From: Candidatus Gastranaerophilales bacterium
Lineage (GTDB): Bacteria > Cyanobacteriota > Vampirovibrionia > Gastranaerophilales > Gastranaerophilaceae
Reading direction: 5' to 3'
Assembly: GCA_944325665.1 (NCBI GenBank)
Contig: CALVAY010000016.1
Span: 1-40,075, forward strand
Length of the DNA stretch: 40,075 nt
The first letter of the stretch is position 1, and each line of letters opens with the position of its first letter. The translations under genes were made by a program, and so were the position numbers. The notes under the pieces were generated by a model that was not told the origin of the DNA, did not search any database, and saw only the letters and a program-made list of their open reading frames with translations. This document shows, in pieces, positions 13,465 through 16,746 of this stretch.

Positions 13465-15396
13465 CTAAATATTCTCAGGCACTTTAACTTTGTAGAATTT
13501 GAAATTTTCAAACGGGCTTGTCTTTTTACCTGTTTTATCCATATTTCTTGCGGTTAACTTATCATATTTAATTTTTGAATTATCGTTGCCTACCATAAAG
13601 AACACGTCAAAAAGGGCTCTTTCTCTATATGCATCGTATGAAAATGCAACTTTTACATCATCAGGGCCCGCTATTACATAAAACTTATTTTCGGTAAGCA
13701 AATCTCTATCGGGGTTATCTCTTAGGATTGAAATTGTACCTTGATAGCCGACAGCCAAAAATCTTCCAAGCCTTATATTTTCATCAATTGTGATAAACTG
13801 TTTACCGTATATATATTTATCAAACATCAAAGGGCTATCATTATGCACACCGGCCATACCGTAGCTAATCCTTGACCCCCAATTTTTAACTCTTGTCTGC
13901 AAACTCGGGCCAAATCTGACAATACCAACCACATCGCCCGTACCGTATAATGTTGCACCTGCTTGAGTATATAGATATGATCTTAGATACATATCTTGCT
14001 CGGGATTTCTTTTTTCAAAAAGAGTTTTAGATAACTCACCTTGCCACCTTAAACGCATTGTGCCAAAAGTGCTATCACTTTCTCTTACACCATAATCCGT
14101 AACATAGCCGCCTGAAAATCTTTGTTTATAGGTTGCATCCAAATCAGCCACTTTGTATGATTTATCATGCACTAATTGCGCAATATATCCCGGTTGTCTT
14201 CTTCCGTAGAACCATTCATCAAAGTAGCCATGACGACCGTAGTCAACATATAAGTTTTTATTAAATTTATATTTACCCTGAACGATTAAATTTTCGCTTG
14301 ATGTACCCCAGGCAGCTTCCAACATATTCCTTTGAGAACGATATCTGCCTATAATACCAATCCCTGCACCTGACTTATATACAAGTGCGGGCATAATTTT
14401 TAATGTGCCGCCAAAAGGTACTTCTGTTGTATAACCCCAACCGATATATGTACCAAAGTCCCTTATCATACCAATTTCAGGAAGATTAGACTCTATATAA
14501 CTGTGCGTTTTATCTGACATTATTTCAATACTGTCGGCACTTGCTACCTTAAATTTTTTATAATATATATCAACTTTTTTTAAAGTAACGTTGTCGTGAT
14601 CTCTTTTGCCTTCAATTATAATTTCTTTAGTCTTGATTTTTAAGGGTTCGCTTCTTTTTTTCTTTAACCCCATATCGGATAATTCACGCTGAACAATTGT
14701 GTCATCATAATACCCAAAACCTTTTGTTTGAAGCATTAATTCAAACTCTTTGGCCATCTGGACATCACCGTTAATCATCTGAATTTCATTAGCGTAGGCA
14801 TATCCTTCTTGAGCCCTTAATACCATTTTGCCAACTGTACCAATAGGCTCATTCATTAAAATATTTTCTTCGTTTAAATCAATGCTCATATAATCACCCT
14901 TAAGGGTTGAGCCGTTTTTATTCAGAACTACGTTATCATAGAGCTTGATTACGTTTGTATTTTTGTTAAAAATAGCCTTATCAGCCCGAAGAGTTGTTTT
15001 CTCCGGATACGTCGTTATAACAACTCCGCCTGTTGCCTCAATTTCATTTCTGTCATCAAAGTATTCCATTCTTTGAGCATCCAAGGTAGCACTGGTTTGA
15101 GGCTCTTTTTGCTCTGCTTTTGGGGCTTTTGTTTCACTTTCTTTTGTTTCTTGTCTTTTTTCCTTAATTACATCAACTAAACTCGGCAGCTCTATCGGGG
15201 GGCCGGAATAAAGCTCTTGAGATTTAACTCCGCCCATATTAATATTCACGTTGTCCTCTTGAACTTCTTCAACTGCTTTATTAGGGTCAACAGTAGGCGC
15301 ATCAACAACTTCATGCGCAAGAACACCACTAATGCCATTTAGTGCTGTAAATAAAAGAGAGAGGCATATAAAATATTTTATATTAAAAGCTTTAAT
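13465..15396 (-). CDS. lptD: LPS-assembly protein LptD (OstA/LptA-like domain plus beta-barrel), apparent ATT start
   Basis: An outer-membrane protein that, in this family, receives LPS from the LptA bridge and inserts it into the outer leaflet. From the proposed start it has 643 residues: signal peptide 1-27 (cut after GVLA), a low-complexity linker, an LptA/OstA-like domain about 104-230 (motifs YFDDRNEIEATGGV, LRADKAIFN and STLKGDYMSIDL), then a C-terminal beta-barrel rich in Tyr, Gly and alternating strands. It is shorter than E. coli LptD (about 780). The first conventional start is a GTG at 15249, which would remove the signal peptide. The frame stays open to 15396, where an ATT lies 8 bases after GGAG, and no ATG, GTG or TTG occurs in between. 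So either ATT is used or a sequence error hides the start. Confidence 0.8.
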   Translation of the reverse strand: MKAFNIKYFICLSLLFTALNGISGVLAHEVVDAPTVDPNKAVEEVQEDNVNINMGGVKSQELYSGPPIELPSLVDVIKEKRQETKESETKAPKAEQKEPQTSATLDAQRMEYFDDRNEIEATGGVVITTYPEKTTLRADKAIFNKNTNVIKLYDNVVLNKNGSTLKGDYMSIDLNEENILMNEPIGTVGKMVLRAQEGYAYANEIQMINGDVQMAKEFELMLQTKGFGYYDDTIVQRELSDMGLKKKRSEPLKIKTKEIIIEGKRDHDNVTLKKVDIYYKKFKVASADSIEIMSDKTHSYIESNLPEIGMIRDFGTYIGWGYTTEVPFGGTLKIMPALVYKSGAGIGIIGRYRSQRNMLEAAWGTSSENLIVQGKYKFNKNLYVDYGRHGYFDEWFYGRRQPGYIAQLVHDKSYKVADLDATYKQRFSGGYVTDYGVRESDSTFGTMRLRWQGELSKTLFEKRNPEQDMYLRSYLYTQAGATLYGTGDVVGIVRFGPSLQTRVKNWGSRISYGMAGVHNDSPLMFDKYIYGKQFITIDENIRLGRFLAVGYQGTISILRDNPDRDLLTENKFYVIAGPDDVKVAFSYDAYRERALFDVFFMVGNDNSKIKYDKLTARNMDKTGKKTSPFENFKFYKVKVPENI

Positions 15397-15414
15397 AAAC
15401 TTTACTCCATAGAC

Positions 15415-15427
15415 ATGCTATAAGCAT
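15415..15427. promoter_or_regulatory. Palindrome upstream of lptD
   Basis: ATGCT-ATA-AGCAT is a perfect 5-bp inverted repeat just before the lptD ribosome site, within the 83-base gap after the M23 gene. It could be an operator or an overlapping -10 region. There is no further support. Confidence 0.3.
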
Positions 15428-15479
15428 ATTTTACCTTAAAAACGTTTTTTTAGCACCCATTAAATAATGCAGGAAATTC

Positions 15480-16634
15480 TTATCTTGGTATAAAGTTAAA
15501 CGGGTTTGTCGGGTTACCGTTTTGACGAACTTCAAAGTGCAAATGCGGGCCTGTTGAGTAACCTGTTGTTCCGACATTGCCTATAACCTGACCTTTTGTA
15601 ACACTTGCACCCTGTGAAACTCTGTAACTGTTCAAGTGAGCATACAAAGAGGTTGTCGGTACACCGCCTACGCGGCCGTGGTCAATGATTACAACTTTTC
15701 CGTAGCCGCCGTACCAGCCGACAAATATTACCTTACCAGAGTTTGCAGCCTTTACGCTTGAGTTCATAGGCATACCAAGGTCAACTCCGGAGTGGAAAAT
15801 TTTCCTCTTGAAGATTGGGTGAACTCTCCAGCCGAAAGGAGAAGTAACAGGGCCGCTGACAGGACGAATAAAGCTTGTTGTTGTAACAATTTTCTGGTTT
15901 GTTTTTTGCGCTTTGCCCGTTTCTTTGTTAATCATAGCAGCAATTGCCTTACTTTGACGGGCTAAATCACGCTCTGCTTTTTCCCAGGTAGCTCTGTCTG
16001 TTTTTAGCTTATAAATCATTTTTTCATTCTGACTTATAGCATCTTGAATATTTTTCTGCTCTCTATCCATTGAGCGAATTGAGCTTTCAAGGTATCTTTT
16101 TTGAGTTTCAATTTGTCTTTTTACTTCAACGATTTTTCTTGTTCTCTCTTGCATATGGCGGATATTTTTCTTATCCTGCTTCATTACAATATTTTCAAAA
16201 TACAATCTGTCCAAGAAATTGTTAACGTTTCTTGAAGAGAGCAAAAATTCAACATAGTTTTTTCTTTTAGTCTTAAAAATCTGAACAATTCTTTTGTTTG
16301 TTGCGCTTTTTAAATTTTCATAGTCATGAGTTAAAGCGGCAAGCTCTGCTTCAAGTGAAGCTATTTTTTGCTGAGCGGATTCATATTGATTCTTGCTTTC
16401 GCTTAGCGTTTGTTCATTCCTCTCGAGTTTTCTTTGGTTTCGATAAAGTTTATTTGTTTCAATTTTTTCTAAAAGCTTAAGCTTATGTATTTGTTGTTTT
16501 ACAGCCCGATGTTTCTGCTCAATGTGGCTGGCACTAACGTTAGCGGCTTGAGCAAATGGCATTTGTGCAAAATTAAAAAACAAAAAAGCACTGACTATTA
16601 TAAAAGATATGTTTTTTTTATGAGATTGTTGCAT
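15480..16634 (-). CDS. Exported coiled-coil M23 endopeptidase (EnvC/NlpD-like)
   Basis: A periplasmic peptidoglycan hydrolase or amidase activator. From the ATG at 16632-16634 it has 384 residues: a signal peptide (about 1-30, ending PFAQA), a long coiled coil (about 35-235, e.g. KLERNEQTLSESKNQYESAQ), and a C-terminal LytM/M23 domain (about 255-384). The zinc ligands of an active M23 enzyme are visible: His and Asp in HSGVD near 281-285, and HLH in PHLHFEV near the C-terminus. EnvC-type activators have lost some of these, so this copy may be catalytic. A TTG at 16676 would add 14 residues before the signal peptide, and I reject it. The gene starts 4 bases after a 35-codon ORF and has no ribosome site of its own, which suggests translational coupling. 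lptD follows on the same strand. Confidence 0.9.
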   Translation of the reverse strand: MQQSHKKNISFIIVSAFLFFNFAQMPFAQAANVSASHIEQKHRAVKQQIHKLKLLEKIETNKLYRNQRKLERNEQTLSESKNQYESAQQKIASLEAELAALTHDYENLKSATNKRIVQIFKTKRKNYVEFLLSSRNVNNFLDRLYFENIVMKQDKKNIRHMQERTRKIVEVKRQIETQKRYLESSIRSMDREQKNIQDAISQNEKMIYKLKTDRATWEKAERDLARQSKAIAAMINKETGKAQKTNQKIVTTTSFIRPVSGPVTSPFGWRVHPIFKRKIFHSGVDLGMPMNSSVKAANSGKVIFVGWYGGYGKVVIIDHGRVGGVPTTSLYAHLNSYRVSQGASVTKGQVIGNVGTTGYSTGPHLHFEVRQNGNPTNPFNFIPR

Positions 16635-16638
16635 AGTA

Positions 16639-16746
16639 TTAACTGAAAAGAAGCGGCAACAATATAGTTGCGCCAATCATCCAAGTGGCAAATATTATTG
16701 TTAAAACCAAAATTATAATTTTTCTGTGTCTTCTGAAAAATTCCAT
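16639..16746 (-). CDS. Putative 35-residue single-span membrane protein
   Basis: A short ORF: MEFFRRHRK, then a hydrophobic segment of about 24 residues (IIILVLTIIFATW and on), ending LLPLLFS. The basic head and following span fit a small inner-membrane protein with its N-terminus in the cytoplasm. Support comes from a promoter at 16784-16812 that fits only this start, a GGAAG site upstream, and the 4-base gap to the M23 gene. It may exist mainly to couple translation of that gene, or it may be a subunit or regulator. I do not recognise it. Confidence 0.55.
   Translation of the reverse strand: MEFFRRHRKIIILVLTIIFATWMIGATILLPLLFS

Follow-up and report, generated by a model that had tools for sequence, protein, structure and literature searches.

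We asked at which codon translation of lptD begins in Candidatus Gastranaerophilales bacterium (GCA_944325665.1, contig CALVAY010000016.1). The window, that is, the whole stretch of 40,075 nucleotides that was analysed, carries an lptD frame for which a sequence-only reading had proposed a start at ATT. Initiation at AUU is weak, its main known example being infC, which encodes initiation factor 3 (IF3), and bacterial genes with AUU-type starts are few. We consider the ATT start of lptD to be well supported but unproven, and, since it recurs in two further genera, to be more than a single oddity.

The lptD frame, its leader and its product

The frame lies on the minus strand and, by direct reading, extends from stop to stop over 15417..13465 (650 aa); the in-frame stop that precedes it is at 15420-15418 and the terminal stop is at 13465. 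After the upstream stop TAG, the 5' end reads CAT GTC TAT GGA GTA AAG TTT ATT AAA GCT TTT AAT ATA AAA TAT. Between this stop and GTG 15249-15247 we could read no ATG, GTG or TTG, in agreement with the sequence-only reading. No canonical codon comes earlier in the frame than this GTG, at which a mechanical ORF caller places the start; ATG 15237 follows as the second. The GTG lies past the signal peptide, and the earlier remark that starting at this codon would remove that peptide proved right, as did its coordinates. The features that we refer to below are the following.

15480..16676, minus strand: upstream gene (M23 peptidase family), with 83 bases between its stop and the ATT
15428..15433, minus strand: TAAAAT, a -10-like element and putative promoter element of lptD, all six columns invariant in the 15-row leader alignment
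15405..15408, minus strand: GGAG, Shine-Dalgarno (SD) core, at an aligned spacing of 7 to the ATT, within the usual range of the genome
15394..15396, minus strand: ATT, proposed lptD start codon, in the same alignment column as the ATT of G016 and the ATA of G058
15388..15390, minus strand: GCT, at the column where the congeners have GTG (14/14) in the leader alignment
15316..15396, minus strand: signal peptide of 27 residues counted from the ATT, ending GVLA, judged by eye from the residues
15247..15249, minus strand: GTG, earliest canonical codon in the frame and start given by the ORF caller, downstream of the signal peptide
13465..15396, minus strand: lptD coding region from proposed start to stop, 643 aa, from reading, domain and predicted fold

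Read from the ATT, the frame gives IKAFNIKYFICLSLLFTALNGISGVLA, followed after the apparent cleavage site by HE; the codon before this site ends at 15316, and the predicted mature N-terminal peptide is HEVVDAPTVDPNK. The GGAG (15408-15405) is separated from the ATT (15396-15394) by a spacer of 8 nt (15404-15397). Both the signal peptide ending in GVLA and the distance of 8 bases had been described before, and we recovered both. The genus alignment (15 rows) shows no variation at five residues that are encoded upstream of GTG 15249 (A34, A40, P41, T42 and P45, numbered in the 650-aa frame), and therefore the stretch before the conventional start is coding.

A structured lptD leader was considered and set aside (z-score -0.99). 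A four-codon out-of-frame ORF (ATG TCT ATG GAG TAA, 15402-15416, minus strand) overlaps the SD core of lptD; in the leader alignment, no such ORF is seen at the matching place in the other members of the genus. A pattern search for the 16S 3' end in the window assembly gave 0 matches, and thus the anti-SD was not read.

As for the identity of the product, PF06835 and PF03968 score above their cut-offs, so that an LptA/LptC/LptD_N-type periplasmic domain is present; LptD_N was found in 39 of the 44 homologues. At E 0.001, none of the Pfam barrel models gave a match. The structure predicted from the 44 homologues is strand-rich, with a mean pLDDT of 71.9 and values of about 78-94 over residues 331-560 (an earlier model from 15 sequences, with a pLDDT of 41.4, was set aside). 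The best 15 Foldseek matches to this model are LptD chains, 14 of them by title, with E values from 1.3e-13 to 9.8e-9 and global TM-scores that are low (0.20-0.33, query-normalised); among these 15 is 4q35, which we take to be an LptD chain. With VIA-align 2, LptD appears in the top rows (Z 13.0, rmsd 12.9, 336 aligned), and other barrels reach a Z close to that of LptD over part of the model. Domain and predicted fold together suggest that the window protein is LptD-like. An outer-membrane barrel needs export.

The frame is intact at about 70% identity, and an lptD match is present in 15/15 genomes of the genus. Elsewhere in the order, some lptD matches contain internal stops (G037, G052) or are split in two near query residues 289-308 (G036, G051, G056).

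Starts of lptD in the genus and beyond

Next, we compared the window genome with 14 congeners, that is, members of its own genus (15 rows, protein identity 68-72%). All 14 congeners have a GTG two codons past the ATT column, where the window genome reads GCT (15390-15388). The congener codon that is aligned to the ATT itself is ATT in 3 cases, ATA in 2, ATC in 1, TTT in 4 and AAA in 4. The ATT is thus not a conserved start within the genus, because 14/14 congeners have the GTG two codons on. ATG at the aligned position, which the sequence-only reading had named as counter-evidence, is found in 0/14 congeners. A second strain of the window species was not found in the genome contigs that we searched, and a pattern search of viral contigs gave 0 matches.

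In-frame ATGs upstream of the GTG (near it in G004, G008, G012 and G013, further up in others) were rejected as starts of the congeners. The GTG is the only start common to all 14, because the upstream frame is broken in G001, G002, G003, G007 and G010. It stands far from the SD, at an aligned spacing of 11-15 nt in 11/14 congeners, which is unusual compared with the peak of 4-7 nt among window-genome genes; 3/14 have no SD match of 4 nt.

Outside the genus we found four more assemblies without ATG, GTG or TTG before a complete signal peptide: G016 and G058 (genus g3, 2/2 examined) and G074 and G102 (genus g53, 2/2). In G016 the leader reads GAGG, 8 nt, ATT AAA, with a further ATT at 5 nt; in G058 GGGG, 7 nt, ATA AAA; in G074 GGAG, 9 nt, ATT AAC; and in G102 GGAG, 10 nt, ATT ACT. 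The comparison for a conserved ATT in relatives, suggested by the sequence-only reading, has a mixed outcome: GTG in 14/14 within the genus, but ATT (3) or ATA (1) in 4/4 genomes of two other genera. In the leader alignment, the ATT or ATA of the window genome, G016 and G058 share one column, and the -10 element and the SD are aligned as well. In G058 and G074 the start region is immediately preceded by an in-frame stop, and therefore an upstream start is impossible there. Canonical codons do occur further on: in G058, G074 and G102 they lie inside the signal peptide, and a start there would leave 12-15 residues without positive charge; in G016 the one that is left falls within the hydrophobic core or at its cleavage site. 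CTG was rejected as the start of G016 because its sister G058 has CTT at that place. In G076 (genus g55) we see ATG ATA AAA near the place of the ATT/ATA.

We also wanted to know how lptD starts across the family. Among 81 genomes from 33 genera we counted TTG in 31, GTG in 27, ATG in 18 and none in 5, taking the canonical codon nearest to the signal peptide as the start; the 81 were sampled from 373 family genomes with an lptD match, and the sample is uneven, with 15/81 from the window's genus and 16/81 from genus g38. No ATG at lptD was found in 23 of the 33 genera. Genus g38 has TTG in 15/16 surveyed genomes, and in genus g43 8/9 surveyed members were counted as ATG. For comparison, ATG starts 264/299 other genes in the window genome and 260/299 in G008, a baseline limited to genes for which canonical codons of the two genomes align. 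A few assignments were made by hand: G028 was flagged as startless by the rule and has a TTG beside the core, so it was counted as TTG, and G009 and G011, with a misplaced core, were counted by the aligned GTG. G136, G021, G064 and G219 are ambiguous in the tally; G104 (no 5' end) and G040 (another family, TTG) stand outside the 81. In this family lptD tends to avoid ATG, with ATT and ATA as the extreme of the trend, and it may be that the gene is kept at weak starts to limit the amount of barrel protein.

In a tree of 44 rows (rows of more than 700 aa were stripped of their first 60 residues) the window genome is sister to the 14 congeners with modest support (89/72), and another tree also places it outside them (83/85, modest). 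In the 44-row tree, G076 is the partner of g3 (90/87), and g43 that of g53 (100/98). On this tree, a single ATT in the ancestor followed by three gains of a canonical start costs the same as three separate changes. A loss of the GTG in the window genome was considered and set aside, because the window genome branches outside the congeners and the next genera also lack the GTG; the tree favours neither direction of change.

infC as a control, and placement by chance

The sequence-only reading had compared lptD with infC, and the comparison is apt because infC starts with ATT in the same genome. Its ATT stands 8 nt after GGAG in 15/15 genomes of the genus, the window genome included. Outside the genus, seven infC loci were sought and four were resolved (loci examined in all: L046-L060 and L196-L202). 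Two of the four, in G290 and G074, have ATT; the other two, in G016 and G058, lack a canonical codon and seemingly start with ATC, 7-8 nt after GGAG.

To see how common such genes are, we ran a screen that covered 840 kb from the window genome and 800 kb from G008 as the one partner, about half of each genome. Earlier screens returned mostly antisense shadows and conserved leaders; once shadows were removed, 343 ortholog pairs were left, 335 of them with at least 80 aligned residues. Among these 335 pairs five were flagged in the window genome, and by eye only infC and lptD truly lack a canonical start; the three other flags were dropped (one apparent antisense shadow and two alignments that extend upstream of the true start). 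In the reverse direction, five flags were raised in G008, none of which was judged a missing start. Pairs without an early canonical codon in both genomes made up 12 rows, which are, besides infC, conserved leaders before an ATG or antisense frames. One leader of about 30 codons (with GGTATCAAGAGGTCAAAACGAAGG), at about 93 kb of contig 1 of G000 (L101), precedes a gene with an export signal and is partly common to G008; an RNA element is one possibility.

Of 299 window-genome genes, 189 have an SD match of 4 nt or more, most commonly at an aligned spacing of 4-7. The aligned spacing of the lptD ATT, 7, equals that of infC and is normal for the genome; the SD core of lptD is GGAG (4 nt), that of infC AAGGAG. 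When the leaders are shuffled, 28-38% of the shuffles for each genome carry an in-frame ATT, ATA or ATC at a distance of 5-10 nt to the SD, and therefore the placement of the codon alone is weak evidence. The product of these rates over the five genomes would be 0.004 if the genomes were independent, which they are not. The weight of the case lies on the missing canonical start in five assemblies, together with the infC control.

Explanations and known non-canonical starts

We think it probable that lptD of the window is translated from ATT 15396-15394 by a weak, perhaps IF3-sensitive initiation. The GGAG 8 nt upstream would position the ribosome on the ATT, the initiator tRNA would read it as formyl-methionine, and the outcome would be a precursor of 643 aa that carries the whole signal peptide. 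Judging from the sequence, it is quite probable that ribosomes use this codon at all.

A base error or a small indel in the assembly might hide a canonical start, all the more as the species is represented by one genome only. However, the codon at the GTG column of the congeners differs from GTG at two bases, the reading frame is unbroken at about 70% identity, and a canonical start is also missing from four other assemblies, which belong to two genera. Since the same lack is seen in five separate assemblies, a base error is unlikely, and we regard an assembly artefact of either kind as quite improbable. Another near-cognate codon in the leader, such as GTC, GTA or ATA, could also serve as the start of lptD; in principle any non-canonical codon is possible, and a passage of PMC5472188 reports that Streptomyces sigR uses GTC. 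Here, however, GTC precedes the GGAG, GTA overlaps it and AAG follows it after 2 nt, the ATA codons at 15381 and 15369 come more than 20 nt downstream of it, in the hydrophobic core or immediately ahead of that core, and the usual spacing occurs only at the ATT, which makes such a start improbable.

As the frame has no canonical codon before GTG 15249, one could argue that lptD starts there and that LptD is made without a signal peptide, or that the gene is decaying. Against this, an outer-membrane barrel would need to be exported, both the signal peptide and the residues encoded before 15249 have been retained, the reading frame is unbroken, and the lptD match is found in all 15 genomes of the genus; we give this reading hardly any credence. 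It is likewise highly improbable that a ribosome from an out-of-frame upstream ATG enters the lptD frame by frameshift or re-initiation. Short ORFs do overlap the leader, such as the four-codon ORF (15416-15402) described above, which ends 5 bases before the ATT. But the leaders of the congeners have no such ORF at that place, the first upstream ATG follows directly on the -10-like element and may be outside the transcript, and re-initiation would use the ATT anyway.

Returning to the ATT start, what could it be good for? We rate the chances that it serves low expression as about even. IF3 rejects AUU, so LptD synthesis would be low and sensitive to IF3; by analogy, production of LptD would be slow and would speed up whenever IF3 runs short. 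Control of this codon by IF3 is, by the same analogy, a tentative suggestion that we doubt somewhat more than we believe; against strong control speaks the SD core of lptD, with just 4 nt, as the S. aureus cases named below have extended SDs.

The closest known system is infC itself, which in E. coli and others starts with AUU (passages of PMC5472188 and PMC1780047) and controls its own synthesis through this start and IF3 (a passage of PMC5472188). Like lptD of the window, it has the AUU at a normal distance from the SD; unlike lptD, an envelope gene whose codon is not conserved in the genus, it is self-controlling and has a longer SD. Outside infC, an AUU start lowers the expression of E. 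coli pcnB (a section of PMC1780047, whose text prints pncB); this gene has another function, and its case was shown by experiment whereas that of lptD is drawn from sequence. The GTC start of Streptomyces sigR is held down by IF3 (a part of PMC5472188), and so resembles the lptD proposal as a non-canonical start that may give IF3 a route to low product; the codon differs, sigR is a regulator, and IF3 control is shown for sigR and presumed for lptD. Further AUU or AUA starts outside infC are reported, in portions of the respective papers, for S. aureus cvfC1 (AUU) and ccpN (AUA), where they lower initiation and come with extended SD motifs that lptD does not have (PMC13009471), for Borrelia pncA (AUU), whose public database entries are still cut to a later start, much as the ORF caller truncates lptD of the window (PMC13398362), and for a fragment of RcsD (AUU; PMC10191623). 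None of these genes is an outer-membrane assembly gene, and we found no report of a non-canonical lptD start among open-licence PMC papers.

A wider idea is that the AUU-type start is an old regulatory trait of a lineage inside Gastranaerophilales, which ties the capacity for LPS export to free IF3 in parallel to infC, and which later gave way to GTG in the other congeners and to ATG in genera nearby; we consider this rather unlikely. If true, the recurrent AUU-type start of lptD would suggest that envelope capacity can be set through a weak start codon, and that the reach of IF3 extends to genes with no role in translation. Because ATG is so scarce at lptD across the family, this idea is testable by a comparison of hundreds of genomes. 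With standard gene calling, the signal peptide of such an LptD would be lost from the annotated protein.
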